Shown here: positions 1 to 31,349 of the stretch, piece after piece | Layout of the letters: every line of letters begins with the position of its first letter | Numbering within the stretch: position 1 is the first letter of the stretch | Origin: Zingiber officinale | Taxonomy: Eukaryota > Streptophyta > Magnoliopsida > Zingiberales > Zingiberaceae | DNA length: 64,000 nucleotides | Direction: 5' to 3' | Assembly: GCF_018446385.1 (NCBI RefSeq) | Contig: NC_056002.1 | Span: 10,178,894-10,242,893 of the forward strand | The notes under the pieces: generated by a model | Told to the model about the DNA's origin: nothing | Seen by the model: only the letters and a program-made list of their open reading frames with translations | Databases searched by the model: none | Position numbers and translations under genes: made by a program

Positions 1-646
1 CCGGGCCCTCATGATGATGATATTATGTTCAAGTATTAAAAGATATGTATAAAGACATTTTGCACTCAACATGTCATATGTTTTAAAAAGGCATTTTGCA
101 TAATGCACCCCTCCTTATATGATATGTTTCTTTCCATGTTCATGATATGTTATGCTTCTCATGGTTTACCTCATATGATTACTTTGTTTATGATATGTTA
201 GAAACATGATTCATAATAATATGTTATGATAAGAATTCATGCTCACATAGTGATGATTATGTTATTTGTTCATTGATGATATACTTGTATGATTATGCTT
301 GAGATACAGATTTTTGTGAGTAGGAAAGAATCTTACTGAGCCCGTGTGCTCATAGCTTACTTCCTTGTACCACAGATAAAGGCAAGGGATGGATGACCTA
401 GGGGAGCTACAGGAGAGGCAAGGAGGTGTGTGTGGCAGTGGCTCGGCTGGGATGAATAAGACCTGCTATAATGCTTTGTTATGTTTGACATGAACCATTG
501 TATTTATGTTACATTCCAGTATAACTCTATGACATTTCCGCTGCTTTAAGTTATAAGAAAGAATTTTTGAATATGTATGTATCCTGGAATGGTTAAGTAA
601 GTAAGTAGCCCCGTCCCTTTGAGAAGCAGGGAGGGCGGGCGTTACA
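1..646 (+). mobile_element. 3' part of an LTR (gypsy-like), cut by the window edge
   Basis: Non-coding AT-rich sequence ending in a CA terminus (GGGCGTTACA at 637-646), directly before the tandem repeats of the Tat element. Around 330-420 there is a run typical of the R/U5 part of gypsy LTRs (a 'cttactgagcc' block followed by 'taccacagataaaggcaag'), which puts the LTR on the plus strand. The 5' end is outside the window, so a target duplication cannot be tested. It may be a solo LTR or the 3' LTR of an element to the left. The whole-LTR reading is an inference. Confidence 0.5.
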
Positions 647-669
647 GTCGCTCGACGATCTTCAATGAT

Positions 670-1075
670 GAGCTTATAGCTCGGATAATATACTTCTGGC
701 CTAACGGCACGGGTTCTTCTACATCGAGCATTTAGCTCGGATAATACACTCCCGGCGAACGGCTCGGGGTCTTCGCCATCGAGCATTGGGCTCAAATAAT
801 ATACTCCCGGCCGAACGGCTCGGGGTCTTCGTCATCGAGCATTGGGCTCGGATAATATACTCCCGACTGAACGACTCGGGGTCTTCACCATCGAGCATTG
901 GGCTCGGATAATACACTCCCGGCAGAATGGCTCGGGGTTTTCGCCATCGAGCATTGGGCTCGGATAATATACTCCCGGCTGAACGGCTCGGGGTCTTCGC
1001 CATCGAGCATTGGGCTCGGATAATACACTCCCGGCCGAACGGCTTGGGGTCTTCGCCATCAAGCATTGTGCTGCT
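670..1075. repeat. 56-bp tandem repeat array (about 7 copies)
   Basis: A unit starting GAGCATTGGGCTCGGATAAT recurs at 670, 726, 781, 837, 893, 949, 1005 and, partly, 1061. The spacing is 56 bp (once 55). It lies just downstream of the gypsy integrase reading frame on the minus strand, so it belongs to the 3' untranslated part of the Tat-type element. Open frames across it are products of the repeat, not genes. Confidence 0.9.
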
Positions 1076-1166
1076 ACTCGCTTGGTGTGCCAGAATCATG
1101 CCTTTGTTCTTATAGCTTTCATTCCTGCAACCAAATAATACATCCGAACAGAATATTCAAAATATA

Positions 1167-2246
1167 TTACATCAGCGCACCTTTCATCCAGCTCGCCCGA
1201 TAGGGCTGGAGGTGGTTTGCGCTCCACGACCTCTCTAGCCTTCGTCCATCCTCATCTTCCAAGTAATAAGCTCCCGATCGGAGCTTCTTGGTGACTTTGA
1301 ACGGTCTCGCCCAGGGAGCCTCCAACTTGCCTACATCCCCGACCGGCTTCACCTTCTTCCAGACCAAGTCGCCCACCTAGAATGCTTGAGGAATCACGCG
1401 GCGGTTGTAGTTCTGCTTCATTCTCTGCCTATAGGCCATCAGCCGGACGAACGCTTTGGCTCGTTCCTCATCGATCAAGTCCAACTCTAGCTGCCTCCGC
1501 TCGGCATTATCTTCGTCGTAGTCCTGGATCCGGGCGGACTCTACGCCGACTTCGATTGGGACGAGCGCCTCGCCTCCATACACCAGATGGAAAGGTGTTA
1601 CTCCCGTTCCCTCTTTAGGGGTCGTGCGGATGGCCCACAAGACTCCTGGCAGCTCGTCCACCCAGCTTCCTCCCATGTGATCGAGCCGAGCCCGAAGAAT
1701 TCGGAGTATCTCCCGGTTGGCTACTTCGGCTTGACCATTGCTTTGGGGATACGCCACGGATGTGAAGTGTTGCTCAAAGTCGTATCCCTTGCACCATTCC
1801 TCGAGCTGATTTCCGACGAACTGTCGTCCGTTGTCCGACACGAGCCGACACGGAATGCCGAACCGACAGATGATGTTTTGCCAGATGAATTTTTTGACCA
1901 TGCGCTCGGTTATCTTGGCCAATGGCTCAACCTCCACCCACTTGGAGAAGTAATCTACTGCCACTAATAGAAACTTCCTTTGTCCGGTCGCCATTGAGAA
2001 GGGTCCTACGATGTCCATGCCCCACTGGTCGAACGGGCAAGACACGGTGGATGCTTTCATTTCCTCCGTCGGATTAGGCGAGAAATTGTGATACTTCTGA
2101 CAGGAGAGACACGACGGTCCGAGCGGCGTCCTCATGTAGCGTTGGCCAGAAGTATCCGGCCAGCAGGATCTTCCTAGCCAAAGATCGGCCGCCCGGATGA
2201 CCTCCGCAAGATCCTTGGTGTACCTCCTGGAGAATGTACTCTGCAT
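1167..2246 (-). pseudogene. Gypsy integrase core and C-terminal domain (broken)
   Basis: Reading from 2246 down, the frame has the rve integrase core with its three acidic positions: D in 'WGMDIVGPF', D in 'LVSDNGRQF' and E in 'GQAEVANREI'. The usual 'GVTPFHLVYG' block follows. The C-terminal module starts 'GDLVWKKVKPVGDVGK' and ends near 'LERSWSANHLQPY'. One in-frame TAG at 1377-1379 separates core and C-terminus where relatives usually have a Gln or similar codon before VGDLVW, fitting CAG to TAG decay. In the cell the enzyme would join retrotransposon cDNA to chromosomes; this copy cannot make the full protein. Confidence 0.9.
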
Positions 2247-2532
2247 CTTCCGAGCTGACGCATTTCAGCAGAGGTCGGGAGAACGCCTTTTTGTAAAGTT
2301 GATCTCCGACGAGCATGAACCGGCCGGCTCTCCTCCTCAGCAGCTGGGCTTCCTCCCGATCGGACGGCATGACACCCGAGCGCAAAAACTCCATTATGGT
2401 TGTTCTCCAATCGCTCGGGAAGGCGAGGCCTTCCATCCGGTCCTCGTGTGCTATCAGAGATACTTGCTCGATTGGTTGCTGGATGACGACCGGTGATATT
2501 AAGGTTGCTAGCTTGGCCAATTCATCTGCCGC
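2100..2532 (-). pseudogene. Gypsy integrase zinc-binding region (frameshifted from core)
   Basis: The frame ending near 2100 carries the H2C2-type region ('EVHQGSCGGHPGGRSLARKIL', then 'GYFWPTLHEDA'), which in gypsy integrases precedes the core. A frameshift around 2100-2130 puts the next Cys pair ('SCLSCQKYH') in the frame of the 1377-2246 segment. On the other side, an in-frame TAG near 2533 breaks the link to RNase H at 'RAEN-stop-AADELAKL'. What I see is one ancestral reading frame in pieces, not separate genes. Confidence 0.8.
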
Positions 2533-3459
2533 CTAGTTCTCCGCTCGGGGTATCTTCTGGACCATCACCTCGGTGAAGTTAGTCTTGAGTTTCTCAAAAG
2601 CCTCCGCGTACAACTTAAGTCTTGCATTGTTTATCTCGAAGGCGCCCATGAGTTGCTGAGCGGCAAGTTGGGAATCCGAGTGGATCACGACCTGACTAGC
2701 TCCCACATGCCGTGCGGCTTGCAATCTAGCTATGAGGGCTTCGTATTCCGCCTCATTATTGGTTGCCCGATAATCTAGCCGGACGGATAAATGCATCCGC
2801 TCTCCCTGAGGCGACAGTAGCATGATCCCAATTCCGCTTCCGAGCTGAGTGGACGATCCGTCCACATATATTTTCCATGTAGCTTCAGGCTCGGGCTTTT
2901 GTACTTCGGTCATAAAATCCGCCAAGGACTGTGCTCTGATCGCCGAGCGGGGTTGGTATTGGATGTCGAATTCGCTAAGCTCCGTTGTCCACTTGATGAG
3001 CCGTCCGGATGCTTCAGGGTTCAGGAGTACCCTTGCGAGCGGGCTATTTGTCATCACAATAATGGTGTGCGCCAAAAAGTAAGGACGCAACCTCTGAGCG
3101 GCGAGCACCAGGGCGAAAGCTAACTTCTCAAGACCAGTGTAGTGAGACTCGACATCTTTTAAGATATGGCTTAAAAAGTACACTGGCTGTTTTTCACCGC
3201 TCGGCCTTACTAATGCTGAGCCCACAGCATGCTCAGTTGAAGATAAGTATATTCGGAGCGGCTCACCTTCGGCTGGTTTCACCAACACGGGTAAGGAATT
3301 CAGATAAGTCTTCAATTCTTCGAATGCCCGATCGCACTCCTCGTCCCATTGGAACTTGGTGGCTTTACGGAGAATCTTGAAAAATGGCAAGCTCCGGTCG
3401 GCGGTCTTGGAGATGAACCTTGACAGCGCCGTTATCCGACCGGTCAGACGATGTACCTC
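2533..3459 (-). pseudogene. Gypsy RT end plus two RNase H domains
   Basis: From high to low coordinate: the RT thumb region ('KATKFQWDEECDRAFEELK'), a first RNase H ('LRIYLSSTEHAVGSALV', 'YTGLEKLAFALVLAAQRLRPY'), then a second, archaeal-like RNase H with 'IYVDGSSTQLGSGIGI', 'NNEAEYEALIARL' and 'IHSDSQLAAQQL'. The D-E-D pattern of the second domain is intact. This duplicated RNase H is a known mark of the Tat lineage. A TGA stop at about 3460 ('PRNL-stop-EVHRLTGRI') separates it from the RT palm; CGA to TGA would explain it. Confidence 0.85.
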
Positions 3460-4445
3460 TCATAGATTTCTGGGAGGCGACATGTCCTGCAGTGCCTTTA
3501 TCTTGCTGGGGTTCGCCTCTATACCTCGTTCGGTCACAATGTAGCCCAGGAAGCGCCCGCCTTTTGCCCCGAACAGACACTTTTGAGGGTTAAGTTTGAC
3601 GCCATACCTCCTCAACATTTGGAAGGTCTCCTTCATGTCCGCGTAGAGATCGGCCGCCCGGAAGGATTTGATAAGTATGTCGTCCACGTACACTTCCAAA
3701 TTGCGTCTGATCTGCCCCCTGAAGACCTTGTTCATCAGACGCTGATAGGTGGCTCCCGCGTTCTTCAGCCCGAACGACATGACATTGTAGCAATAGGTGT
3801 CGCCCGCCGTGATGAAGCTGACCTTCTCTTGGTCTTCTTGGGCGAGCGACACTTGATGGTAGCCTTGGTATGCATCCAGCATGAATATAGCTCGCACCTG
3901 GCCGTGGAGTCCACCAGCTGATCGATCCGGGGAAGGGAGTAGAAGTCCTTTGGGCAAGCCTTGTTCAAGTCCCGGAAGTCGATGCAGACTCTCCACTTGT
4001 TGCCCACCTTGGAAACCAGGACCACATTTGCAAGCCAACTTGGGAATTGTACTTTCCTTATGTGGCCGACCTCTAGAAGCTTCTCAACCTCCGCCCGGAT
4101 GATCTCATTTTGCTCTGCGCTAAAGTCCCTCTTCCTTTGCTTCACCGGACGAGCGTCCGGCCGGACATGAAGTTCATGTTGCGCTACGCTCGGCGAGACC
4201 CCCGGCAGCTCATGGGTCGACCAGGCGAAGACGTCGCAGTTTCGCCTCAAGCATTTGATCAACTTCTCCTTCTGCTTCTCCTCCAGATCGGATGCTATGA
4301 AGGTGGTGGCCTCCGGTCGGGATGGGTCAATCTGCACCTCCTCCTTTTCTTCATAAACTAAAGAAGGTGGCTTTTCAGTAATAGCATGTACCTCGACCCG
4401 CGACACTTTCCGACCGGACTTGGCTTCGGCTCGGACCATCTCCAC
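3460..4445 (-). pseudogene. Gypsy reverse transcriptase palm and fingers (frameshifted)
   Basis: Two overlapping frames together give a gypsy RT. The upstream frame (4445-3905) has 'PSWLANVVLVSK', 'WRVCIDFRDLNKACPKD' and 'LPRIDQLVD'. The downstream frame (about 3905-3460) has 'AYQGYHQVSL', 'FGLKNAGATYQRLM' and the catalytic 'YVDDILIKS'. A frameshift near 3905 separates them. The enzyme copies element RNA into DNA; this copy is broken. Confidence 0.9.
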
Positions 4446-4447
4446 GT

Positions 4448-5168
4448 AGCATCTCCGAGCGGCCAGCTAGTCTCCCCGCACCTCCCCTACTTGATCCTCC
4501 ACCGGGAATTTGATCTTCTGGCAGAAAGTGGAGATGACCGCCCGGAACTCGTTGAGAGCCGGTCGCCCCAGGATGACGTTGTATGCAGAAGGAGCATCGA
4601 CCACGATGAAGGTGGTGGTCCTTGTCCTTCTGAGCGGCTCCTCACCCAACGAGATAGCTAGTCGGACTTGGCCGACCGGCAAGACTTCGTTGCCCGTGAA
4701 TCAGTAGAGGGGGTCGTCATCGGCAGTAGTTCGGCTCGGTCAATTTGTAGTTGGTCGAAGGTCTTCTTGAAAATTATGTTGACTGAGCTGCCTGTGTCAA
4801 TGAAAATGCGGTGAATAGTATAATTGGCTATTACCGCTCGGATGATTAGGGTGTCATCGTGAGGGACTTCAACTCCTTCGAGGTCCCTGGGCCCGAAGCT
4901 GATCTCTGACCCGCTCACCCTTTCCTTGCTGCAGCCGACCGCATGGATCATCAACTGCCTTGCGTGGGCCTTTCTGGCTCTGTTGGAATCTTCGCCGGTC
5001 GGGCCCCCGGCGATGATGCTGATTTCTCCCCGAGATGTGTTGTCCCTATTTTCCTCCTCCCGAGCGGAAGGTCGAGGTCGTTCATTTGACGCTCGGTGGT
5101 GGGCTCCGTGCTGCTGACGGTGATGCTGCTCGGGGGATCGCCTTTCTGTCCTTTGCATAGGGCTCCGT
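4448..5168 (-). pseudogene. Gypsy protease region and gag-pol linker
   Basis: An aspartic protease active site 'IFIDTGSSVNIIF' lies at about 4770-4810 on the minus strand, followed after a frameshift near 4690 by 'PSAYNVILGRPALNEFRAVIS', the flap and hinge end of retropepsins. A TAG near 4467 ('GEVRGD-stop-LAARRC') cuts the frame from RT and fits CAG to TAG. The upstream part ('RTERRSPEQHHRQQHG') is the linker that continues the gag frame found at 27056, beyond the 21.9-kb insertion starting at 5169. Confidence 0.8.
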
Positions 5169-8100
5169 TGTCACGCCCCGAGGGAGTCTCTGTCCGAATA
5201 AAATTTCGACAACATCTCCCCTGTACGGGTGACAATCTGAGGCAAATCTACATACAAAATATACATCAGCCACAAGCGGCTGGAATATACACACAACCAC
5301 GCAGTTTATATCATCAGTCCACTCGGCTGGAACAAAATAAACAACCACGCAGTTATAAATATATTTAACAGCCTATTCAGCTGTACTAAAACCAAAAACA
5401 CAGCGGAAAAGGACAACACATACAACCCAAAACTAAAACTGCTAGCCGTCTAGGCTTACACAACACAACAATATAACATCTCCAGAAACAAAATCGGAAT
5501 ACAACTCTAATTACACCAATTATAAATACCGAAGTAAAAATACACAAAAACGTAGACATGTCTTCGGATGTGATGTGGGGACCAGCAGCCAGAATACTCC
5601 AAGCGTCTCTATAAACAATCTAGTACCTGAAAAAAATAGTGTCCACGGGGGTGAGTTCAACAACTCAGCAGATACCTAGTTGACATGTATAGTAAACTAT
5701 AACAAATAGTAATAACTATGGAGTACAGTCTCCTGATCAAAAGAAGGTAATGCATAATGGAAAAGGGCTGATGAATACTGTACTCACCAGGGCCACCTAT
5801 CAGAATAATCAGGTCGTCAGACCGAAAGTGTCATAAATCCTGTATGCATGTCAAACATATGCATCCATCCAAATGCAGCATATAAGTGCAGCAAACACAA
5901 GCAGTAAATGCATAAATGCATATGATGCCAATGATGCGTCCTGGTCACCCCTGACGCCAGTCAGTCATCTCACACACAATGGTGAGACCGAGTGGGTAGG
6001 GTTGTGACAACCGTGCACTCTACTGTCACTATACCTGACGAGTGACTGAGTGGACGGGATGCTATCGGAGTACTCCTGTCCTCTGACCCCAAATCATAAA
6101 TGGGGGAGCTCAATGCTCTCATCTCCCGGTACACGATAATGGGGGAGGTATCTCTGCCGGCTACCACGCTGAGTCACCTGACCAATGGAGCCAAACAGAG
6201 TCTACCGTCTGTCGGCTACCACACTGCTACACTAAATGCCAGCGGAGCCAAACAGAGCGGAACTGTCTGCCGGCTATCACACTGAGTCACCTGACCAACG
6301 GAGCCAAACAACAGAACCGCCACACACCTGCCTGATATACCACTAATCCATGAGTGGTGGTGTGTGCAGTACATGTAACTGGCGATGTGCTCAACCATAG
6401 TGGAGCCGACAATTGCGTAGCATGCAATCATGATGCATGACACTAAGCATAGCAATCAACTGATCAACATAACCATATCCATATATATAAAATGAGTACC
6501 GTAATATTGATGATCAAATACCAAGATCTCAAGTACACAGGTCAGATAGGATATCAAAAACCTAGGTCCTGAGCATAATAAAGCATGATTTGTCACTACC
6601 TCTAAAATCATATATATAATCATGTGAGTATTAATATATAATGCATAGCAGGTGAGCAAACAAGCATGTAACAAGTATCCGGTAGTGACATATTGAAACA
6701 AGGATGAACATAATTATTACTAAGGTTATAACCTACTAAACATATCAACAAGACATATCGAAAAGATAAGTCAAGGTACCCGCCTCCGATAAGAGGATCG
6801 TATCCGGTCCAATCCGATGTCAAGATACTCGTCTCGCGTCAAAGTCCTGTGTCACCAATATAAATACATTTTTATTTAGCTACAACTCAAACGAATAGCT
6901 AAATAAAAATCCTTAAGAACAATTTAGGAAAAAACCCTAATCGATATAAACATTAACCCTAATTAAATCATCCATGAATCCTTTAATCTTTCCAAGACAC
7001 TCCACATTTTATAATCAATTCAATGATTATATCGTTCATAAACTCTTCTATTAATCACAATGTCAATTTAATTAACAATTCATCATAACAAATCATGATA
7101 CTAATCCCATAATCCTATAATTGATCATGTGACCTTCTACATCAATCAACACCAAATGATCATAATGAATCCACTCCAAAACTTACCCAATCTCAAGTAG
7201 GTGGCTGGTAACTCACAATTAAAGGAATCCATAACCAGAAATAGGTTGTTCAAATCTGTGGATTGTCCTCAACAAAGATGGCCGGAGCTACAAAAGGGTC
7301 AACCAAGACAATTAACACAACCTTCCATTCAGAAATCAGAATCTAGATCTCTACCACCCAAATCAAAATGCCTTACCACCATCTCCTATCAGCAGATACC
7401 AATCTGACAGAGCCCAACCGAATGTGACTGTCGAGACAAGTGAAGAAGGAACCAATGGTAGCTAGCGCAGTGGAAACCGCTCGAGTGAAGAAGGCAATGC
7501 GATCCAGGGATGGGTAGTGAATCCAAGCTAGCGCACAGAGATGGTGTAGCATCAGCCCAATCAAGCGACGACACTAAGCATGAATCTGAGGAAGAGGAGG
7601 TGCTAGGGCTGAGGAAGACGGTTGGCGCTAGGACTGAGACGCGGTCTGGCGCAACCGATGTAGGGTGAGGGCTCGACGCTGGCAACGGGTGCTCGGAATG
7701 CATCTATGCCGGTGATCTACGCTGCGATTCTTTGATGGTGCGGCCGCAACTCACGAAGAGGGAGAGGATCGGCAGTGGCACGACTGTGGTGCTAGGGCAC
7801 AGGTGAGGATCGGCCACTGGGATCTCCCCGGCGAGTGGTGACGACGTCAGCAAGGCACAGTGTTGGCGGCCGGTGGCTCGACTGGGCAGCGAAGCAAAGA
7901 TTAGGGCACCGAGAGGGAAGAGGGAGAGGAAAGGCGAAGCTCAGCCGCCGGCTCTCTGGTCCCTGGCGTCGTTGGCGTCGGCAGAGGAGAGGGAGGAACC
8001 GACGGTTTGCGGCGCCGGTTAGGGCACGCGTGAGGGAAAAAAAAGAAAGCTCGGGGGGGGGGGGGGGGGGGGGAAAAAGAAAAATGGCGTGAGAAGAGGA

Positions 8101-15462: not shown

Positions 15463-16138
15463 AACCTCATCCAGGATAAGTCACATCACTTAAGGCTTAT
15501 TCCTCATAAATATATTGAGTTTTAGAAGTGCAATCAGAACTTAATTAAATTCTCCATCGCCAAATTTATGGTTTGAAAATTTCAGCTTGTTTTTGTTTCT
15601 ATCAAATTGGTAAATTGAACCATGTCTACTATTAACACTATCCTTGAAAGGATGCCTGCGTGCAATTTATTCCCCTGCCTAAGAAACTCTTCCACATAAA
15701 CACAATGAAGGAAAGACTTTCCATCCAAGCAAGTGAAACACAATAGAAAAGTTAGCGAGTGAGTTTAGACATAAGGTCTAAAGATAGAATTCAAGAGAAC
15801 TTAAATGATGGAGAGGAAGCTTGAGTGATGAAAAAGAGAGACGGATCTTTTCTTAGTGCTCAGTATTAAGTCATGCTAAGCTTGTTTTGCTTAGTAAGAA
15901 TAATACAAAGGTGATCGTAGGCAGCATGAGCAAAATGACAAATTCTGCCCAGGATGCTTATTAGTTATATGAAGACCTGGTCAAATGTGATGTATCACTC
16001 TTATCAAGCTACAGATTGCTACAGATTGCTGACTGAGATATTAGGATCTATCCCTTCGCTACTCATTCCCAACATCAATAGTCTGACACTAGTCTACGAG
16101 TGGACTCTCCGAATGCCTATTGATCGCATGCAATATAT
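15463..16138. other. Gypsy interior between TR-GAG and CACTA insertions
   Basis: AT-rich, no gene or repeat recognised. Part of the 5169-27050 element by position. It ends with the TAT that is duplicated by the CACTA insertion. Confidence 0.4.
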
Positions 16139-16159
16139 CACTACAAGAAAAAAGCTAAA

Positions 16160-16560
16160 CAACAACGCTTTTTTGGCGTTGTCGTATGTACTAAAAAAGT
16201 GATGTTGTAGATGGTGTTGTAGAAAGTCATATCAAAGACAACGCTTTAAAAGCGTTGTGGTTGGTCACAAAGACAACGCTTTTTAAGCGTTGTCTTTTCG
16301 TTCTTAAAAAGCGTTGTTATAGATGCTGTTGTAAAAATGCACATATCAAAGACAACGCTTTAAAAGCGTTGTGGTTGGTCACAAAGACAACGCTTTTTAA
16401 GCGTTGTCTATTCATTCTTAAAAAGCGTTGTTAAAGATGCTGTTGTAAAAATGCGCATATCAAAGACAACGCTTTAAAAGCGTTGTGGTTGGTCTCAAAG
16501 ACATTGTTTTTTAAGCGTTGTCTTTTATTACTTAAAAACGTTGTCTTTTTAAATTTATAA
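16160..16560. repeat. Left subterminal repeats of the CACTA element
   Basis: A unit of about 115 bp starts near 16232, 16347 and 16463. Each contains two near-perfect palindromes of the form GACAACGCTTT(n)AAAGCGTTGT. These are candidate binding sites for the accessory transposition protein, as known for subterminal repeats of Spm-type elements. The same motif recurs near the right end. Confidence 0.85.
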
Positions 16561-16794
16561 AAAATAGTGTTTTTTAAATAGCAAAATTATAAAAATACTC
16601 AAAATTTACATATAATTGAATATCCACAACCACAATCATTTTTATAATAAGACTATTTAACAAATAAATAAAACTTTATATTATACAAACAAAATGTATA
16701 CATATTGATCCACAAATTAAATTTGTATCATACAAGTTATCCTTAACTTCATGACAATAATTTTTCAAACACACAAGTTTTACAAAACCTCATC

Positions 16795-16930
16795 ATTGAC
16801 TAACCGCTGTTGTTGGTGTCCATCGCATGGAATTGCTTCTTTAAGTCCAACAATCTCTTCTTCTGAAAGGCTTTCAGCTATCACTCTTAGAGCCATCTTC
16901 TTCAACTTGTCATCAGCACACCTGGGGTTG
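16795..16930 (-). pseudogene. Captured exon of a calcium-dependent protein kinase (CDPK)
   Basis: Minus strand, after an acceptor-like 'caaccccag', reads 'DKLKKMALRVIAESLSEEEI' and then 'VGLKEA'. This is the autoinhibitory junction of plant CDPKs leading into the first EF-hand. After one frameshift the DNA continues into 'AMDTNNSG', the start of the EF-hand loop. In CDPKs this region holds the kinase inactive until calcium binds. Only this exon is present: no kinase domain lies nearby, so it is a captured fragment. Confidence 0.75.
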
Positions 16931-17269
16931 TAGGCAATCAAGAAATTTTGTATGAAAACTTTCATACATGTAAATCTCGTACTAAATAATATGTCAATGT
17001 TATATATACATGTAATTCATACCGTAAGTGTGTTTATATCGTAATCGACAAGTTTTCTTTAGGGCCAACTTCTACTCAAGCTCTTTAAACACTGCATCAA
17101 AATAAAAAAATTGGCATTAGTTATGTGCTAAATGAAAATCATATTTAGAGGAAAAAGCGGGAGTGTTGTAGATGGATATATTAACCAAGCATATTAATGT
17201 TTGACCTGTCTTTACAAGTTCTAAGCATATATATTAACCAAGCATATAACCTAAGAGGAATAAGTTACA

Positions 17270-17530
17270 AAATGCTACTTGATGTTTGACCTGTCTTTAT
17301 TGGATTTTGCGGCCCCGGTCTTCTTGTAGCCAGGCACAATGTAATACTTGATGTTGACTCTACCTTTGCAGTTGTTTCGGCTTGAGGAGTGGCAAAGAAT
17401 GGTGGAGTAGAGGATGGATTTTAGGTATTCATCCGTGCCATCGAGGAAATGACTCCAGTAGGTGACTAGCATGTTGACCAGGGCATGCTTGGAGAAGATG
17501 ACTTGTTTCAGAAGCTTTTTAGATCAAAGA
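17270..17530 (-). pseudogene. Captured gene fragment of unknown identity (1)
   Basis: Minus strand reads 'KLLKQVIFSKHALVNMLVTY' and on through 'WSHFLDGTDEYLKSILYST' to 'RVNIKYYIVPGYKKT'. The composition and codon pattern look protein-coding, but I do not recognise the family. It sits between the CDPK and Ycf23-like fragments inside the CACTA element, in the same orientation, so capture from a host gene is the simplest reading. Confidence 0.45.
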
Positions 17531-17639
17531 TACGAAGTGCATTGTTATAAAACTAGATGCACGAACACTTGCTTATACGGTTCTTGAAATAAAATACATT
17601 CGTAACCGTCACTAGCCCAAGCTCAATAAGGAAAATTCA

Positions 17640-17840
17640 CGGTAAATGTGCATAGTATACCTCAGATACTGCAGATGATAGGGAAGGCCAGAAGACAGTT
17701 TGATGCAAATATTGAGATTGCCCAAGCCAATCCATGGTACTAATCCTGACAGCTCCTCCAAATCGCACTGACTTGATTGTGTCCACCCATCCTTGTTCAT
17801 CAGCTTGGAACCTTTGAAATGAAAACTGCATTGGGTACAT
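17640..17840 (-). pseudogene. Captured gene fragment of unknown identity (2)
   Basis: The minus frame reads 'QFSFQRFQADEQGWVDTIK' and 'VRFGGAVRISTMDWLGQS', a plausible exon body rich in conserved-looking aromatic and Gly residues. Family not recognised; it may belong with fragment 1. A second frame over the same DNA is open too, so even the frame choice is an inference. Confidence 0.35.
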
Positions 17841-18130
17841 GGAAAAAACAACAAAAAGGGAGGATAAATGATAGCCACCAACCTAATTGTTCACAAATAT
17901 CTGTATAAGTTATTAAGGGTGTTCATAGAAGTTGATCCTTTAGCCGTGTCTGTTAGATGGTCAAATCTAGGCGCCAACTCAAAAATGTTGGCGTCCAAGT
18001 GTTAGTGTTCAACTACTTCTGACAATGAAGTAGTAGCAGATAATCAAGAACACAAGAGAATCTGAAAGAGTCTATATTTCTTTCACTAGTAGCAGATAAT
18101 GATTAGATTAGAAAGCAAAAGAACGCATAC

Positions 18131-18960
18131 CACACCAGCTGCTCCTGCTGTTAAAGCCATAGGTGCAGTGACAGCGCTTAATCCAGATGAGCACATAACT
18201 GGAATCTGAACTGCTCGGGAAATGGAGTATGCAGCTGCTAGCGTTGGTGTGGCCTACATTTTAAAGAGGAAAAATATCACATTTTTCATCACAAGTGTGC
18301 TAAGATTTCTTATTCGTACTGTTGTTACCTTCTCGATCAAACCAAGGACACCAGGTTTTGATGGACTTGAGTATTTCCCTCCTTCAGTTTGGATTATATC
18401 AGCACCTTCCTGTTCCAGCAACTCTGCTAGCTTCACCTTTTTAAATTGAACAAAAAACAACGAGAGATTGTGTTAGTGACAAATCTCAGTTTACGAGGAA
18501 ATAAATGAGCTACCTGATCAGGGAGACTAAGCATGTGTGGCACGGTTACAGACAGTGTAATGGATGGAAGAATCCTTCTAGTTTCTCTAGTGAGCTTTAG
18601 AATCTGACAATGGCACCACAGAATAGTGACGAGATAGAAATAGCTGAAAATACTCGAGGAACTGCAAGGAAAAGTACGATCATGATTCATATACCTGTTC
18701 AGGGGAAAACTGAATTCCCATCTCGTAGAAAGAATCATAATTTCCAATTTCCACCTGCATTTAGCACAAGGATTTTAATGTTTGGTATGACAGACAATCC
18801 GATCGAAACCAGTCAAGTTCATCGCATCCTAACCATTTGGGCACCTGCTTCCACTGCAGAAGGAAATGCCAAAGGGTCCACAGAGGAAACACAAATCTGC
18901 AAGAACAAGATCATCATAAGAAAGAAGAGCTGTGGAACTCTGAAAATGCGAGCTACTGAG
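18131..18960 (-). pseudogene. ycf23-like: Captured Ycf23-like gene segment, exons and introns
   Basis: At least five collinear exons with GT-AG borders on the minus strand: about 18900-18838 ('ICVSSVDPLAFPSAVEAGAQM'), 18754-18697 ('VEIGNYDSFYEMGIQFSPEQ'), 18606-18515 ('LKLTRETRRILPSITLSV'), 18436-18331 ('VKLAELLEQEGADIIQTEGG') and 18253-18131 ('ATPTLAAAYSISRAVQIPVM'). From memory this is the Ycf23 family, a (beta/alpha) barrel protein of plastids and cyanobacteria of unclear function. Neither start nor end of the gene is present. Intact introns show DNA-level capture, not retroposition. Confidence 0.75.
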
Positions 18961-19613
18961 GCAGCGAGCAATCTGCTTGAACAAGGTAATCATGCAGTGT
19001 TGGAACTCTGTCGTGAGCATCAAAGACCAAATATTACCAAATATTAAGATCACTGACAAACCAAATAATACCTTATTTTTAACAGCTATCTAGAGGATCT
19101 GGCTTTTTGACTTGAAGCTGGTTCAAAGAAGACAAATCAAATATACAAATACTAAGATGAAAGCATAATGAAGTAGTTAACTTTTTCTACTTTACCTGAT
19201 TATAAGATCTACAGCTTCTTGCTCAGTATTTTGCTGCACGAGTAATTATTAGAAAAACAAACCCAATAGTGGAACAAAAGCTAGATAAAGAAACTAGATA
19301 ATTTACACTGACAGAACTTTACATAATAACATATAATACAGTGCTTTGTACTTGCATATTAATCCAGAAAACATCCTTTCACCTAAGTGACAATTTTTCC
19401 AAAACATCATCATTCACAAAACATCATCATTCACTAAAAATTTTCACAAGTTTTTAAACTTCAATGACAACTTTTCTTTGGGGTCAACTGCTCAAGGTCG
19501 ATCTGGTAACTATGCACTGCATCAAAAAAATTGGCATTAACTATGATTCCACCAAAAACCACCATTCCATGAACTTAAATCTAAATAGAATTATGGCAAC
19601 TATCATTCCATAC

Positions 19614-21931
19614 CTATTCATAAATATGATCTTGTATGCACTCCGCCAACTCGGACCGAACCTCATCAATTTGTTCACGAGAGTACCCTATTTTTGTGAA
19701 CTGTGAGCATACACAATTTATGTTAATGGAAAAATAATCAACACTGATCACTTTGCAATTTTAAATAGTTTATGTCAAATAATTTGAGATAAGCTAAATA
19801 ATGTTACTATTGATTGTGAATCTCTCTCAATAGTCTCAACTTCTTCAATAATTTCTCTCATAAATCGCATCACAAAAAAACCACATTGTTTCGCATCCGG
19901 TTGTTGAGGAGCCTATATATAGTAATTAGAGTCAAATTGTTAATGAAAATTATACACATTACAATATATGTTAAACAAAAGTACACATACCTTAACTACT
20001 TCCCACTTAACATTTTTCCTACCTTTCCTTCCCTTGGTTGAATTAAACAATTTTAAGGCCCTTCATACGTTAAGAATATTTGTTAAATAAGATTTTTATT
20101 ATAATAAATATTTACTAAAAGAAATCTGAACTCACATTTCCATTACGTATTTTGAATCATCATCGCGAATGTGGCAACTTAGGGAATCCAGCAGGTAAAT
20201 AGCATCCTTGTAAGGTTCAATAACACTAAGATTCCAATGGAAACTAGGCAAATACATAGGATTAGATCATAAAATTGAATAAATTATCGAAAGGAAGCAA
20301 TTGAAAGTGATGTTTTACTTCTTGCTTACCCGACATTACATGGCACTAACACTAGTTGATCTGTTGATGCACTTGTCAGCTTATCTGCTAAAAGAGTTGC
20401 CCTTTGATTCAGGGTTTCAAGCTTAACTGATTTGTCTTGTGCCATTTTTGCCAGATATGGGAGTTTGTGAGGATTCATAAATCTGAATTTCTTTGTCTTG
20501 GTATCTTTCACCATCTTTTTATACAGACACCTATCATTGCAAAGAAAAAAATATTTAGATACTAAATAATAAAATTTAGATACAAAACACTCATAATAAG
20601 TTGGAAAAAATAATGATCACTCATAACACTAAGTTATGGCTGATGATAGTAACATCCATACATGAGAACTTACTATGAACAGTCTTGCATATTAAACATA
20701 CCAGAAATGTATACATGCAAATTCTTTTATTTCTTGAGGACAAGCACATTTAAGATACTTAAAAATATACAAGAAAAAGATATGAGCAAAGTACTTCCTG
20801 TCTAGAAGAACAAATGGCAGAAGGCAAACATTAAAGGCCGGTTGAAAATGAATGAGCTATATTTATGTAAAGTGTACCACATCAATTGATATTAGTAAAC
20901 CTCTCAATAGAAATGATGAACTATTAACTTAATGAGAATAACATGGTATGAGAAAATTACTAGAAGTTGAATTTTCAAGAGTAAACTTGTTCACACAACA
21001 ATATTAGTAAACTTCTTGCAGTTCAAATCAGGGATTTTCTGTCTTGCTAGATATTAGAATTTCCCAGCAAACATAAAGCAATGCAGTAATTTCCCAGCAT
21101 AAGTAAAGCAATGCAGTTGCAACTGAGAAAATAATATTTAGATACTAAATAATAAAATTTAGATACAAAACAATCATGTGGATTAAAAAATAATGATCAC
21201 TCATAATAAGTTGGTGAAATTGTAACAATAAACCATAATAAGTTGCTAAAATTGGGAAGCAAACATGTGATGAAAAAGTTGCTGAAATTGCTTAAATAAA
21301 CTTACTTACCATATGTAGGCAACGATCAAATTTCCTGAAATTGACTCCAAATGATACAAAGAATTGATGTCCTCAAGGTCAAGAAAAAGTTCACAATCTT
21401 CATCAAACACTTCATTATCTAAGCACATTGATATACATTTTCCTCCATCTAGAGCATGCTTACTGTAACAATATAACATATGTAATGCTCTTGGGACACT
21501 TGTTGACAAAGTAGGTTTTGATTTTTTTTCGTTCAAACTTCTTCCTTCTAGGCTTCTAATAATTTCAAATATAAACAAGTTAGATATAGCTAGGTTGAAT
21601 AATAATAAAGTGGCAATATAATTAGAAATATAATAATAAAGTGACAATATAATTAGAAATATAATATCTCATATACCTCATCTTGCTTCACAATCTGCTG
21701 TTCAGGCCAAGCCACAACAGTTCCTATGGCATCACCAATTACTTCACATTCACTTGGAATTGGATATGGCAAAGGAGCGGATTTGTCCACTGCTTGATCA
21801 ATGGAGACTCGAATGCAATTCTTGGGAAATGGAATACCATGAAGCATTTTTTCCATGCCATTGAAACAAACAATTGTACCATATGCAGCAATATTTGAGC
21901 AAGATTCCAATGTCAATGCAACTGATTGACC
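19614..21931 (-). CDS. Ulp1-like cysteine protease gene (C48), CACTA-borne
   Basis: Seven exons with GT-AG borders on the minus strand: 21931-21677, 21555-21310, 20530-20330, 20243-20136, 20060-19991, 19912-19808, 19700-19614 (stop TAG). The first has a DUF8039-like region ('CEVIGDAIGTVVAWPEQQI'), found in plant transposon proteins. The last five form the Ulp1 fold: 'DQLVLVPCNVG', catalytic His in 'FHWNLSVIEPY', Asp in 'YLLDSLS', Cys in 'DAKQCGFFVMRFMREI'. C48 enzymes cut SUMO-like modifiers; for transposon-borne copies the substrate is unknown. Upstream, the frame may join the FG-rich exon, but a TAG at about 22050 stands between them unless spliced out. Confidence 0.7.
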
Positions 21932-22082
21932 CTAAAATATTAAAAAAAAAACATGTTGATTATATTGAGTTTATAATGCTATAATAATAATGAATATCAC
22001 TATAACTTATATTTTACCTGTAAAACTTCGTCTTTACCCACAATCTATACGTCATCTTCTTCAATATTCTTCTGATGAAACT

Positions 22083-23172
22083 TCACCGAGCAACTGCCTT
22101 TGTCATCAATTGAATTGTCCCATGCACCCCAAATCCAAATGACAGAGTTGAAGGCTTTGCAGCAGTAGGAGCGGAGAACATAGATGCACTGGAGGGAGTT
22201 GATGTAGCAGCATTGGTAAACCCAAAGGAAGGTTGGGACACAGCAGATGTCGGAGTCGCAAAAGAAAAGCCAGTTGCCAAGGTGGACGTGGTAGTAACAG
22301 GTGAGGACGAAGTAGTACTACCAGACGACACGGCATCGAACGAACTCGGAGCAAAGGAACTGCCACTTCCAAAGGAGAAAGGAGAGGTCGAAATGCTGGT
22401 GATGGCAGGAGAGGAGGTAGCGGTAGCAGAAGAAGAGAATAGAGGGGACGCAGAGGAGGAGGCAGGAAACGGGGATATGAAGGATGGAGCTGGAGCAGAC
22501 GTCGTCGGCACAGAAAAGGCGGGGGGAGATGAGGACGTAGCAAACGAAGGCACCGAAGGTGCGGCACTAGCTGACGAAGCAAACAGTGTCTGAGCCGAGG
22601 ACAAGGCCGGCGCCGGAGGGGAAGCGGAAGTACCAAACAACGGAGAGGCAGCAGTGGAAGACGAACCGAAGCCGAAGTTGGGAGTCGAAGCCCCCAATCC
22701 AAAACCAAAATTAGGGCTTGAGGAAGCGGAAGGTGCGGCGGATGCTGAGGGAAAAGGGATGGGTTTGGGAGAAGAGACCGCCTGCGAGGAAAAGAGACCG
22801 GGGGTAGTAGAGGCGGAGGATGGAGCAGATGGCGAGAAAAGACTAGAGGTAGTAGAGGCGGAGGATGGAGCAGATGGCGGGAAAAGACTGAAGGTAGAAG
22901 CGGCGGAAGATGGAGCAGACGTCGAGAAAAGACTGGAGGTAGAAAAGGCTGAGGATGCGGCCGATGAGGAGCCAAAGGTTGAGAGGCCGACGAGAGATGG
23001 GGAGGAACCGGCGGAGGAAGAAGCGCCTAGGGAGAAACCAGTGGCGGAAGATGAGGCGGCGCCAGCGGCGGTGGGAGCGAAGGAGAAGGGGGAGGCGGAG
23101 GAGAGGGAGAAAGAGGAGGAAGCGGAAGAGACTGAGGGTTTGGGTCGACTTGGAGGAGTTGGGCTGGCGTGA
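22083..23172 (-). CDS. FG-repeat, nucleoporin-like first exon (captured)
   Basis: A long minus-strand frame of low-complexity Ser/Ala/Pro/Thr with recurrent FG and FGFG motifs ('NFGFGLGAS', 'TPNFGFGSSS', 'FSFGSGSS', 'SFGFTNA', 'LSFGFGV'). It resembles the N-terminal FG region of Nup62-type plant nucleoporins, which line the nuclear pore channel. GC content is far above the surroundings. The frame is open above its first ATG (22697) to about 23172; no start can be fixed. It lies just upstream of the Ulp1-like exons and may be fused to them, or be a separate capture. Low-complexity similarity is weak evidence, so identity is tentative. Confidence 0.45.
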
Positions 23173-23209
23173 GGAGTTTTGCGTGAGGAGTTTGGGTCGA
23201 GATTAGGGT

Positions 23210-23345
23210 TCAGAGGAGATCACGCGGCAAGGAGAGGAGAAGGCGCTCGTGGAGAGGAGAAGGCGCTCGTGGAGAGGAGTGGAGAGGAGAAGGCACTCGT
23301 GGAGAGGAGTGGAGAGGAGAACTCGTGGAGAGGAGTGGTGAGGAG
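23210..23345. repeat. Short GAGGAGAAGGCGCTCGTGGA-type tandem repeat
   Basis: Five or so copies of a 20-28-bp purine-rich unit inside the right part of the CACTA element, just before its right subterminal repeats. By position it could be leader DNA of the minus-strand gene. No function can be read from it. Confidence 0.6.
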
Positions 23346-23414
23346 AAGGCGCGCGCGCGTTGAGGGTTTAGAGTTTAGCAAAGCGAGGGCTGCGAATTTA
23401 TTTTAAGTGAGTTT

Positions 23415-23640
23415 AGGGGAAATATACACAACACTTTAAAAAACGTTTTTTAAAAAAATGTTGTCTTTGACCATAAACAACAACACTAAAGAAAACACTT
23501 CATTAAAAACCGTTGTCTTTAGTAAAAAGTAAATACCATAGACAACGCTTTTCACTAAAAGCGTTGTAAAACAAAGAACGACAACGTTTTTATTAAAAAG
23601 CGTTGTCTATTGGGTGTTGTTGAATGCAAAAATTCTTGTA
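23415..23640. repeat. Right subterminal repeats of the CACTA element
   Basis: Several inverted copies of the AACGCTTTT...AAAAGCGTTGT motif seen at the left end, leading into the terminal inverted repeat ending at 23643. Confidence 0.85.
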
Positions 23641-23947
23641 GTGTATGCTACAACCAAATAGACAGGTGCAAAAAGTGTATTAACACATGTCATAACTATA
23701 ATAGACAAAAAAAATGCATATACCAATAGAAATGCACGATAACAATATACCAACGTACCTCCTATAGCTTGGAGATGTCCTGCCGCTGCCAGGTCCCAAA
23801 ACCCGAAAAAAAAATCACATCGAGAAGACTAAAACACGGAATCCGAAACACAGGAAAATAAGACTCGTAAGCCGAGCTCTGATACCAAATAAATTGGTAT
23901 CAGATAAATCTTGAAAATCCAAAACACATAGCAAGTATCATATACCT

Positions 23948-26900: not shown

Positions 26901-27050
26901 GCTAAAATAGGGTAGCCTAAACTGGCTTTCCCGTACCCTTTTTTTATCCCCGTAAACTCGTCCATACGAGCTCCGAAAAATTTCCAGAAAATTTCTAAAA
27001 ATTCCAGAAAATTCCCATATCACTATTCGCCATTTTTTCGATATTTTACA
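23966..27050 (-). repeat. 5' LTR of the 21.9-kb gypsy element
   Basis: 3085 bp, partner of 5169-8297, with TG/CA ends and target duplication TCCGT directly outside at 27051-27055. The close match between the two LTRs suggests a fairly recent insertion compared with its Tat-type host element. Confidence 0.95.
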
Positions 27051-27055
27051 TCCGT

Positions 27056-28195
27056 TGTCGATGTTGCCGATCTGGTGAAGGCGATCGGCGGCGGTAACTC
27101 CTTGGTGCGGGATGAGCGATGGGGGGGAGGCTCCGACAGTCGCGGGTATTGTGGGTGGCCGACTGATGGAGTGAACAGAACATCGGGGTCCATACATTCC
27201 CCTTGTGTTTGGGCCGATCAGCCGCGACTTGCTGGACTGCGTGCGGCCGAGCGTGCTGATGAGGACGGGCGGCTTCGGCTCGCGGTCCTCTAGGTGGCTG
27301 GTGACTAATGGGTTGCTTCCGCTCGGCGGGAGCTGGTTGGTCGCTCTGGGCTTCTTTTCTTCTCGCCGCCTGGGCTTCCTCCACATTGATGTATGTGTTG
27401 GTTTTATGCAGCATGTGGTCGTAGTCCCGAGGCGGCTTCCGGATGAGCGATCGAAAGAAGTCCCCGTCCACGAGCCCTTGCGTGAACGCGTTAACCATTG
27501 TTTCCGAGGTGACCGTTGGAATGTCCATGGCCACCTGGTTGAAGCGCTGAATGTACGCTCGGAGCGACTCCCTTGCGCCTTGCTTGATTGCAAACAAGCT
27601 GACGCTTGTCTTCTGGTGGCGCCTACTGCTGGAAAAATGATGGAGGAACGCCGTTCGGAATTCCTTGAAACTTGTGATGGAGCCGTCCAACAGTCTTCGA
27701 AACCACCGATGCGCCGATCCCGAAAGCGTTGTGAGGAACACTCGGCATTTCACACCATCTGTGTACTGATGCAGAGTGGCGGTGCTGTCGAATTTACCCA
27801 GGTGGTCGTCTGGGTCGGTTGTCCCGTTGTACTCCCCGATCGTAGGGGACACATAATGCCTCGGCAGTGGATCGCGAAGAATGACGTCTGAGAACTGCCG
27901 GTTGGTCCGCTCGGGAGACGCGTCTGAACGGGGAGCCTTTCCTTTTCTGACGTCCCGGACGGGTGCCTCGTCTGATGAGGATCCCTTGTCTTGATTGGCT
28001 TGCGCCACCTCCGAGGGCGTCTGGAACAGGGCCCGATGAAAAGGTATCGGGGCGGGCGGCGCCCCCATCTGTGTACCGGCCGACCCCTTGTTTTGCCCCC
28101 ATATTGAGAGCTGCTCCTGCCTGTCTTCGGGTGGTGCTCGGCCCCCTGAGGCTGATGTTGCCTGCCGGCAGGACATTGGAAGGCGGACTGTCCTC
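27056..28195 (-). pseudogene. Gag of the Tat-type gypsy element (cut at both ends)
   Basis: The minus-strand frame is open over about 380 codons. It has a retrotransposon gag core ('YNGTTDPDDHLGKFDS', 'CRVFLTTLSGSAHRWFRRL', 'FKEFRTAFLHHFSSSRR', 'ESLRAYIQRFNQVAMD') and an Arg/Gln-rich basic tail. It ends at the TCCGT duplication of the 21.9-kb insertion, and its frame resumes at 5168 as the gag-pol linker. On the upstream side it runs into copia sequence near 28196-28220, so the true N-terminus is missing. Confidence 0.88.
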
Positions 28196-28251
28196 GTAGG
28201 AACCAAAACAAAGGTATATCTCATACTCCAGTTGTTGAAACATGTTTACCG

Positions 28252-29532
28252 GTGTTATCTACCAGCACCTGGTGTGTAGATACGGGAGCCACTGATCATG
28301 TCTGCAATTCCTTGCAGGGGTTCCAGGAAACCCGACGACTATCTGAAGGAGAAATTACCGTCTACATGGGCAATGCTACTAAGGTGGCAGCTGTTGCAGT
28401 GGGAAACGTCTACTTATCTTTTAGTAGAAATAGAAATTTGATTTTAAGAAATTGTCTTTATGTACCCAGTTTTAGAAAGAATTTAATTTCAGTTTCTAAA
28501 CTGTTTTTAGATGGATATTCAGTTTCTTTCAGTAACGATGTAGTTATTAAAAGAAATAAAGTGATTATCTGTTCTGGTGCATTAGTTGGCAATTTGTATA
28601 CTTTAAATCCAATTTCTTCCACAAAGCAAAACATGGAAATTTATAACTCATCTTCTAACTCTAATAAGAGAAAAGAACCTTCGGAGATGAACCAAGCATA
28701 TCTTTGGCATCTAAGGTTTGGTCATATTAACTTAAGTAGGATTCAGAGGCTTATAGCCGATGGACTTTTGAGTTCATTTGAGTTGGAAAATTTTCCAACT
28801 TGTGAATCTTGCTTGGAAGGTAAAATGACCAAGAGACCGTTCAAGGCCAAGGGGTATAGAGCCAAAGAAGTGTTAGAATTGATTCACTCTGATTTGTGTG
28901 GTCCTATGTCTGTCCAGGCAAGAGGAGGTTTTGAATATTTTGTCTCTTTCATAGACAATTATTCAAGATACGGATACATTTACCTAATGCGGCGCAAGTC
29001 CGAGTGCTTTGATAAGTTCAAAGAATACAAGGCTGATGTGGAGAAACGATTAGGTAAAAGTATCAAGACACTACGATCTGATCGTGGTGGCGAATACCTC
29101 TTAGGAGAGTTTAGGAATTACTTATCAGAGGCTGGGATTCAATCCCAATTGTATGCACTTGGAACACCCCAACAGAATGGTGTAGCAGAACGAAGGAATA
29201 GGACTCTTATGGAGATGGTTAGATCGATGATGAGTTATTCAGAATTACCAAATTCGTTTTGGGGATATGCTCTGGAAATAGCAGTATACGTTCTGAACTT
29301 AGTACCTTCTAAATCAGTTTCTTCTACTCCCATAGAATTGTGGAATGGGCGAAAACCCAGTCTAAGACATATTCGGATTTGGGGTAGTCCAGCACATGTG
29401 CTGAAACCAGATGCTGATAAGTTAGAATCTCGTACAGAAGTTCGCGTGTTTGTAGGATATCCCAAAGGGACGAAAGGTGGTTTATTTTATAGTCCTAAAG
29501 ACCAGAAGGTCATTGTTAGCACCAATGCCTAG
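28252..29532 (+). pseudogene. Copia protease and integrase part of pol
   Basis: In order: protease active site 'WCVDTGATDHVCNS', the pre-integrase HHCC domain ('LWHLRFGHINLSRIQRL', 'CESCLEGKMTKRPF'), and the integrase core with D in 'LIHSDLCGPM', D in 'LRSDRGGEYL' and E in 'NGVAERRNRTL'. The frame stops at a TAG (29530-29532) where relatives continue into the linker; the next frame restarts without shift at 'FLEEDYIMD'. The frame is open upstream of the protease ('VVETCLPVLSTSTW'), so the element once extended further left. Confidence 0.9.
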
Positions 29533-29833
29533 TTTTTAGAAGAAGACTATATAATGGATCACAAGCCCAGTAGCAAAGTTATTTTAGAAGAACTTAGAGA
29601 GGACATGTCTACTTCAGTACCAATAGTACAAGATGAAGTACCACAAGAGACTGCAACACGTGTCACACAACCACAGACAATGCCTCGTCGTAGTGGGAGG
29701 GTTGTAAGGCAACCTGAGAGATTCATGTTTTGGGAGAGTCTTGGACTTGATCCCGGTAAACATGAACCCGATCCATGAACATATGATGAAGCACTCCAAG
29801 ATATAGATGCATCTTGGAAAAAGGCAATGAATT
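29533..29833 (+). pseudogene. Copia pol linker between integrase and RT
   Basis: Same frame as the integrase part after its TAG: variable linker with 'RRSGRVVRQPERFMF', the usual basic stretch before the RT. A TGA at 29776-29778 and a one-base loss near 29834 ('KKAMNS') separate it from the RT frame. Confidence 0.7.
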
Positions 29834-31349
29834 CGAAATAGAGTCTATGTACTCTAATAAGGTCTGGGAGCTTGTAGAACCACCTGATGGTGTAAAAGCC
29901 GTTGGATGCAAGTGGATCTACAAAAGGAAAAGAGGGATAGACGGGAAGGTAGAAACCTTCAAAGCTAGGCTTGTTGCGAAAGGGTACACTCAGAAAGAGG
30001 GAATCGATTATGAGGAGACCTTTTCACCAGTGGCCATGCTTAAGTCTATCCGGATACTCTTATCCATTGCTGCTCATATGGATTATGAGATTTGGCAAAT
30101 GGATGTCAAGACAGCTTTCCTTAATGGAAGTCTTGAAGAGAACATCCATATGAAGCAACCAGAAGGGTTCATTGAAAAGGGCAAAGAGCATCTAGTGTGT
30201 AAGCTCAATCGGTCCATTTATGGACTGAAGCAAGCTTCAAGATCTTGGAACATCCGGTTTAATGAAGTAATCCAGTCATATGGATTTATTCAAAGTCCGG
30301 ATGAGTCTTGTGTATATAAGAAGTGTAACGGAAACGTGGTGGTATTTCTTGTACTATACGTAGATGATATTTTGTTAATTGGCAACAATGTCAAGGTATT
30401 ATCAGACGTAAGGGTATGGTTGTCCAAACAATTTGATATGAAGGACTTAGGAGAGTGTGCACACATTCTTGGGATCAAAGTGATAAGGGATCGCAAGAAA
30501 AGAATGTTGTGTCTGTCCCAAACTTCATATATAGATACAATCCTTGCTCGTTTTAGTATGCAGGATTCCAAGAAAGGTTTCTTACCTTTTAGGCATGGAA
30601 TAGCTCTATCTAAAGAGATGTCTCCTAAGACATCAAAGGAGATAGAAGACATGAAAGCAGTTCCTTATGCCTCGGCTGTAGGAAGCCTTATGTATGCAAT
30701 GCTATGTACGAGACCTGATATTTGTTTTGCCGTGGGTATGGTCAGCAGATATCAGAGTAACCCTGGACAAGGACATTGGACTGCGGTAAAGCATATATTA
30801 AAGTACCTGAGAAGGACTAGAGATTATATGCTAATTTACCAAGCAGACGATTTGCTCCCTGTGGGTTACACGGATTCAGATTTCCAATCAGATAGGGACA
30901 ATAGTAAGTCTACATCAGGCTATGTGTTTACTTTAGGAGGTGGAGCCATTTCATGGAGGAGTGTTAAGCAGAAATGCGTATCGGACTCAACCATGGAAGC
31001 TGAGTATGTAGCAGCCTCTGAGGCAGCTAAAGAAGCAGTATGGCTCAGGAACTTTCTAATGGACTTAGATATGATTCCTGGTTTGCCCAAAATTATCACA
31101 ATTTATTGTGATAATAGCGGTGCAGTTGCAAACTCGAAGGAACCACGAGCTTATAAGGCAAGTAAACATATAGAGCGCAAGTACCACCTGATACGAGATA
31201 TCGTGAAGCGAGGAGAAGTTGTCATCGCCAAGATTGCATCAGCGGATAACCTGGCAGATCCTTTCACTAAGGCCCTTCCGGTGAAAGCTTTTGATCGACA
31301 TGTGGAGGGAATGAGAATCAGATGTGTGGTAGAAGATATGGCAGCTTAG
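29834..31349 (+). pseudogene. Copia reverse transcriptase and RNase H
   Basis: About 505 codons open. RT: 'VGCKWIYKRKRGIDG', 'FKARLVAKGYTQKEGIDY', 'QMDVKTAFLNGSL', catalytic 'LYVDDILLIGNN'. RNase H: 'YTDSDFQSD', 'TMEAEYVAASEAAKEA', 'YCDNSGAVANSKEP', then the C-terminal 'DNLADPFTKALP'. All catalytic motifs are intact, so this segment decayed little, but with the breaks upstream no complete polyprotein can be made. Confidence 0.92.

Follow-up and report, generated by a model that had tools for sequence, protein, structure and literature searches.

We describe here a 7,505-bp CACTA element of ginger (Zingiber officinale) that lies at positions 16139-23643 of a 64,000-nucleotide stretch of contig NC_056002.1 (positions 10,178,894 to 10,242,893 of the forward strand; hereafter, the window) and that is, in all likelihood, a non-autonomous Pack-CACTA within a CACTA-ULP family. 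The element holds host coding DNA with source loci elsewhere in the genome: its Ycf23 piece, an internal segment of a Ycf23/DUF561 gene, and its FG-rich piece are recent DNA-level captures. A first-pass annotation, made from the letters of the window, had regarded the whole interior as a multi-gene chimera assembled by DNA-level capture. This idea holds for the Ycf23 and FG pieces, whose parents were found and, in the case of Ycf23, whose introns were kept, but not for the Ulp1-like gene, the CDPK junction-domain piece and two further coding-like pieces (B and C), which are, judging from their recurrence in the genome, parts of the family.

Ends and copies of the element

Both termini named in the first-pass annotation are present. 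The 11-bp sequence CACTACAAGAA at 16139-16149 (plus strand) is matched by its exact complement at 23633-23643 (minus strand), and TAT duplications flank the element on both sides (16136-16138 and 23644-23646). Past these 11 bp the two ends no longer form a long perfect inverted repeat. Subterminal ACAACGCTTT/AAAGCGTTGT repeats occur near both ends; on the left (16150-16570) their palindromes build three 114-bp tandem units, and the right subterminal region (23145-23632) is common to the three architectures that we read. Terminal inverted repeats, a 3-bp duplication, subterminal repeats and, in the family, a TNP2-type transposase (Transposase_21) are thus all found, as in CACTA (En/Spm) elements. 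Pack-MULEs have MULE ends and target duplications of ~9 bp; here, CACTA ends and 3-bp duplications were found instead. The internal coding-like pieces all lie on the minus strand, as annotated before. Transposase_21, by which an autonomous CACTA element would be recognized, was absent from the 20 open reading frames (ORFs) scanned out of the 80 listed. A search of a plasmid collection and a search of the whole window against Rfam at gathering thresholds gave no match, and a Pfam hit to ArfA in an ORF of the terminal repeats (16195-16434), at 24.9 bits below the cut-off of 25.5, was taken as chance.

The genome searched comprises 3.09 Gb in 211 contigs (labelled C1, C2 and so on; loci fetched from it bear L numbers); the available part of the report on a haplotype-resolved ginger assembly gives 3.1 Gb and 11 chromosome pairs (PMC8342452). 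When the whole element was used as a query and the best 20 of 3,966 candidates were scored, at least 17 full-length copies were obtained at 98-100% identity, the window's own included, the other three being incomplete or interrupted. Both ends were present in 19 of the 20 fetched loci, and 17 of these 19 showed a perfect 3-bp duplication, in 12 different sequences (probability by chance 3e-29, assuming 1 in 64 per copy). The same two ends thus recur together in the copies, in agreement with the earlier assumption that they belong to one element. The flanks were alike among a few copies, as though the insertion targets were related repeats. Joining the window copy's host flanks around a single TAT, we found six places that matched across the junction at 85-98% identity (best 40 of 2,956 candidates scored); because the insertion sits in a repeat, these are empty sites only in the sense of related ones. 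A unit with these ends has transposed many times. Moreover, the mean distance to the majority sequence is 2.45 substitutions per kb among 18 copies with the architecture of the window element (type A; 5,782 columns away from gaps), and this low divergence is that of a recent burst, about 0.2 million years old at a substitution rate of 1.3e-8 per site per year.

Captured Ycf23 and FG-rich pieces

The Ycf23 piece sits on the left-end side of the Ulp1-like gene (18037-18936, minus strand; BLAST extends it to 18942) and comprises five exons (18896-18834, 18754-18695, 18603-18514, 18436-18329 and 18253-18131) and four introns, in line with the at least five intron-separated exons annotated before. 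The exons are all in phase 0, and their spliced translation matches Pfam DUF561 at 4.3e-56; we take this DUF561 protein to be Ycf23. A genome search with PF04481 (best 150 of 195 candidates scored) placed the piece in at least 62 places, 24 of which were read as fetched loci and the remainder known by position, in addition to L030 (C9) and L032 (C10), two loci that are fuller. Outside the piece these two are 94.6-95.7% identical to each other, and both hold extra flanking exons on either side that are not in the element; they are therefore taken as the putative two parental alleles of the Ycf23 gene, so that the parent expected by the first-pass annotation was located. The copied segment (906 bp by BLAST, 18037-18942; by eye it ends at ~18936) is 98.3-98.7% identical to the parents, with colinear introns and junctions, and both of its edges fall within parent introns. 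Seven sites in its body are unlike both parental loci in 20 of 20 copies compared; five additional differences fall at the capture edge. Across the copies compared (19 of 19), the spliced 444-nt frame remains intact together with all splice sites, and at the amino-acid level the window copy does not differ from either parent.

The second capture is a 1.02-kb piece from inside one host FG-rich exon, taken up without a start codon (22128-23144, minus strand), and the window ORF that contains it runs over 22083-23219. Besides many element copies and three weak matches, a protein search (best 120 of 175 candidates scored) gave C6:42638-43645 and C49:533238-534251, both 97% identical and with longer open frames (528 and 534 residues), so that for this piece, too, parental loci were recovered; the former was read, and the latter is known as a match alone. 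The C6 exon begins MAFSFNSSFSS, and the element aligns to 1,023 bp of its interior with 23 mismatches (97.07%), the start codon being excluded. The FG-rich ORF described earlier is present, and its nucleoporin-like label is one of composition: the ORF has no Pfam match, and the parent's exon has no Pfam or PDB match. The host gene is presumably Nup62-like. At C16:105027287 and C18:23364404, an element-type FG match was seen with no Ycf23 match within 6.5 kb.

Family genes, relatives and architectures

A 30-base pattern of the left end occurs 505 times in the genome and a 32-base pattern of the right end 466 times (≤2 mismatches), the reversed patterns giving 0 in both controls. Among the ends listed, 100 left ends were compared with the first 96 right ones: 87 of these left ends had a correctly oriented partner within 30 kb, the members ranging from 4.1 to 26 kb in clusters recognized by eye. 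The Ycf23 piece was present in 16 of the 87 paired members, each smaller than 7.6 kb. The Transposase_21 search (best 150 of 6,544 candidates scored) located TNP2 inside three paired members of 16-18 kb with the same ends, two of which also carry the Ulp1 exon (C4:127250184-127266185 and C2:122569811-122587803); for the third (C1:158483041-158499213), the Ulp1 exon was not among the matches listed. Additionally, there is a right end at C3:62886506 whose partner left end was not among the ends listed. Counted from it, TNP2 lies 2.5 kb away, Ulp1 7.9 kb, piece B 12.0 kb and the CDPK piece 12.6 kb, so that the order at this place, from the right end, is TNP2, Ulp1, B and CDPK piece. In the window element, the FG piece occupies the position that TNP2 holds in the larger relatives. 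One family thus combines a Ulp1 (Peptidase_C48) gene with Tnp2, as in CACTA-ULP.

The Ulp1-like gene (19614-22060, minus strand, about eight exons by eye), correctly recognized in the first reading, is the core gene of the family. Its spliced model bridges a single-base frameshift present in the window copy and matches Peptidase_C48 at 1.4e-13 and SENP1 at an E-value of 8.9e-6, and the histidine, aspartate and cysteine were found by eye where expected. At 22045-22047 the window copy reads TAG, against CAG in 15 of 18 type-A copies, and its exon 21311-21560 is one base longer than in 15 of 18 copies. The first exon (85 residues) was matched in all 150 candidates scored (best 150 of 1,354), 92 of them at 100% identity over 85 residues; among the matches listed on C1-C4, 27 of 33 places lie inside paired family members of up to 26 kb. 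The exon also occurs in 13-26 kb members that have no Ycf23 piece. No host Ulp1 gene stood out among the matches listed, a separate search aimed at one not having been made.

Near the left end, the CDPK piece (16780-16930, minus strand) shows homology to the junction domain of CDPKs (29 residues aligned by phmmer against PDB, E 5.9e-9), as recognized earlier. It was matched in 150 of 150 candidates scored (best 150 of 469), the copies being 98-100% identical, and among the matches listed on C1-C4, 36 of 40 places have a listed left end at a distance of 0.62-0.80 kb. A host parent gene was not found among these best 150 of 469 candidates because element copies filled the match list; given its homology, the piece may be an old capture. 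Between copies, 12 of 14 changes in this piece (16830-16922) are of the C-to-T type. The coding-like pieces B (17275-17523) and C (17637-17840), both minus-strand ORFs as annotated before, gave no match in Pfam, NCBIfam or PDB. They were searched jointly (166 matches among the best 150 of 695 candidates), C being matched beside B in some places, and 20 of the 30 places among the matches listed on C1-C4 fall inside paired members. Such recurrence across the family does not support the earlier reading of the CDPK piece and pieces B and C as captured by the window element alone.

Among the Ycf23 places read, at least three architectures were distinguished. Type B (L027, 5,456 bp; L040) has element positions 1-3292 and 6171-7505 in common with type A, and ~804 bp of different sequence replaces the Ulp1 region. 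This middle gave no Pfam or PDB match; in L027 it holds a coding-like stretch, ICQWLVFQTACSTKVTRRFGIAMATW.... L040 has no left end within the fetched stretch, and a 766-bp insertion was seen in it between element positions 993 and 1022 (reverse-complement 689-1454). Type C is represented by L041 (4,144 bp, flanked by a matching 3-bp duplication) and, in part, by L037. Here the left 0.7 kb adjoins the Ycf23 segment, and Ulp1 and FG are replaced by 1.9 kb of other sequence that includes the stretch MKFLDWYLKIGAVSALIGASMEVFMIHTGF (L041 reverse-complement 3310-5234); the replacement is apparently another capture. Type C retains a cut-off CDPK piece and therefore probably derived from an A- or B-like element via internal deletion and replacement. 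An FG match was present within 6.5 kb at 52 of the 62 Ycf23 places, at clustered distances that fit types B and A, and at 10 there was none. In the shared non-repeat parts, types B and C differ from the type-A majority by substitutions at 0-0.5% of aligned sites (for type C, 3 of 607 sites on the left, 1 of 1,098 within the cassette and none of 494 on the right), and all architectures read are therefore recent. Exchange of the Ycf23 cassette between diverged lineages was also considered and rejected, the divergence of the ends being inflated by repeat-unit offsets and by private changes of the window copy.

In the remainder of the window, long retrotransposon-like ORFs, Gypsy- or Copia-like by eye, were noticed at 1377-5170 (minus), 27046-28245 (minus) and 28156-31349 (plus), together with ORFs resembling a LINE endonuclease and the end of a reverse transcriptase (51507-53259, plus) and a FAR1/FRS- or MULE-type protein with a SWIM zinc finger (62473-63763, minus), likewise by eye.

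Rival readings, mutation cold spot and known systems

Several other explanations of the same data were weighed. That the two ends come from different, adjacent or nested elements could be argued from the lack of a long perfect inverted repeat beyond 11 bp and from a locus on C6 (L025) where a right end abuts internal element sequence; given at least 17 full-length copies at different places with the same two ends, the duplications of 17 in 19 and the related empty sites, we assign it practically no credence. On the C6 locus itself (L025/L029, C6:38075998-38092900), the left end is missing, a right terminus directly abuts element position 673 and more right-end fragments lie near. According to the available text of two papers, the capture model for Pack-CACTA begins from such an end adjacency (PMC8903248, PMC13317346); the tandem-insertion mechanism proposed for Arabidopsis is no more than hinted at by this locus. 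It could also be supposed that the Ycf23 and FG pieces arose as processed retrocopies, or are what is left of real genes that stood here, and the frames still open (Ycf23 in the copies compared, FG in 10 of 18) would fit this notion; yet four introns are kept, the Ycf23 piece begins and stops inside parent introns, and it lies in at least 62 places besides the parents, which leaves that notion next to no chance. It is very improbable, too, that the Ulp1-like gene is a recent host capture by the window element. Ulp1 domains of plant transposons have indeed been described as transduplicated host sequences in the available parts of PMC13317346 and PMC2528002, but the exon recurs in every scored candidate (best 150 of 1,354), 92 of them identical, and in 13-26 kb members devoid of the Ycf23 piece, so that the earlier listing of this gene among the captures is not supported.

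A somewhat different question is whether the element is a working chimeric gene, in which a right-end transcript would yield an FG-Ulp1 or Ycf23-containing fusion protein, as the first-pass annotation had suggested. All pieces share one strand, all 19 copies preserve the splice sites of the phase-0 Ycf23 exons and their open 444-nt frame, the FG frame is stop-free in 10 of 18 copies, and FG codon changes relative to one parental locus lean synonymous. However, the parent's ATG is missing from the FG piece; read from the right end, the FG frame first meets an ATG at 22181, an internal one that opens 32 codons, the longest stretch opened by any of its late ATGs. The window FG frame then terminates at a TGA that is out of frame with the Ulp1 frame, and this latter frame is itself broken by a stop codon and a frameshift that 15 of 18 copies do not have. 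We hence consider a fusion protein quite unlikely, and we return to the reading of a non-autonomous Pack-CACTA.

Some observations sit uneasily with this reading. Two of the 19 copies (L017 and L022) have no matching duplication. Of 335 codons of the FG piece compared with the C6 locus, 12 carry synonymous and 9 carry nonsynonymous changes, a dN/dS ratio of ~0.32; the host branch may explain the synonymous excess, and the ratio, which includes that branch, was set aside as a basis for any claim. A member from before the capture, with the Ycf23 flanks joined, was not found among the best 40 of 749 candidates, all 40 of which matched the left flank alone, at places known to carry the Ycf23 piece. 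Finally, the Ycf23 segment is a mutation cold spot with about one third of the expected mutations, unlike what plain passenger DNA would predict.

In the 18 type-A copies, the segment 18037-18904 carries 7 singletons against 23.8 expected from the rest of the element (Poisson 6e-5) and 0 shared variants against 6.2 expected. The element's coldest block of the same size lies at 17930-18797 and covers most of this segment; none of 2,000 permutations gave a count as low, the test having been performed after the pattern had been noticed. The introns are as cold as the exons (3 changes in 5,904 and 4 in 7,884 bases, respectively), which argues against selection on a protein, and no such coldness is seen in the FG capture. 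As the cause, gene conversion by the Ycf23 parent was rejected, since the seven sites differ from both parents in 20 of 20 copies; lower methylation is a possible one. We also considered that the Ycf23 segment is no mere passenger and has been kept near mutation-free through at least three architectures, e.g., by unmethylated, gene-like chromatin that shields the element from silencing, or by sequence selection during spread, and we regard this as unlikely.

Under the Pack-CACTA reading, TNP2 of the larger relatives would move the window element in trans, and the host pieces would have entered through DNA repair in the course of gap filling or of an aberrant excision, a route put forward for Pack-CACTA elements; the captured pieces are then probably passengers without protein function.

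The closest precedent is Tgm-Express1, the CACTA element of the soybean wp allele (Zabala and Vodkin, 2007; PMC1947982), in which CACTA ends likewise surround intron-keeping exon-intron pieces of unrelated host genes. In the available text, Tgm-Express1 is a 5.7-kb element with pieces of five genes that lies in a gene intron and has its exons spliced into host transcripts, while the ginger element is known from DNA alone. The ginger element, in turn, offers many copies, parent genes and transposase-bearing relatives in one genome, and it has kept the family Ulp1 gene. Pack-CACTA elements of Arabidopsis and other plants are also non-autonomous with host coding DNA, and pieces from more than one locus are reported in the accessible sections of PMC8903248 and PMC13317346; unlike the elements as presented there, the ginger element holds a family Ulp1-like gene beside its captures and exists in at least three architectures. 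CACTA-ULP of grapevine, with like proteins in rice, joins Tnp2 and a Ulp1 domain in one family, as in ginger (PMC2528002, in the part available), and Peptidase_C48 is reported in ORF2 of CACTA elements in the portion seen of PMC8978399. The ginger window copy differs from the grapevine elements in having no Tnp2 in the scanned ORFs and in having gained host pieces. Pack-MULEs and the Ulp1-bearing Kaonashi MULEs similarly capture host DNA or carry Ulp1 (PMC13317346, available text) but belong to another superfamily. No description of the ginger CACTA family was found in the literature searched, most subscription journals lying outside it, and the term 'CACTA' is absent from the main text of two ginger genome papers.

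Gene-carrying CACTA elements are already known, and the general picture is unchanged. What the ginger family adds is that a single assembly shows gene capture, transposase loss, burst and reshuffling, with ~500 family ends, TNP2-bearing relatives, two captured pieces with their parents and at least three recent architectures. This makes the family suited to testing how CACTA elements take up genes and whether captured genic DNA affects the silencing or mutation of the element that carries it.

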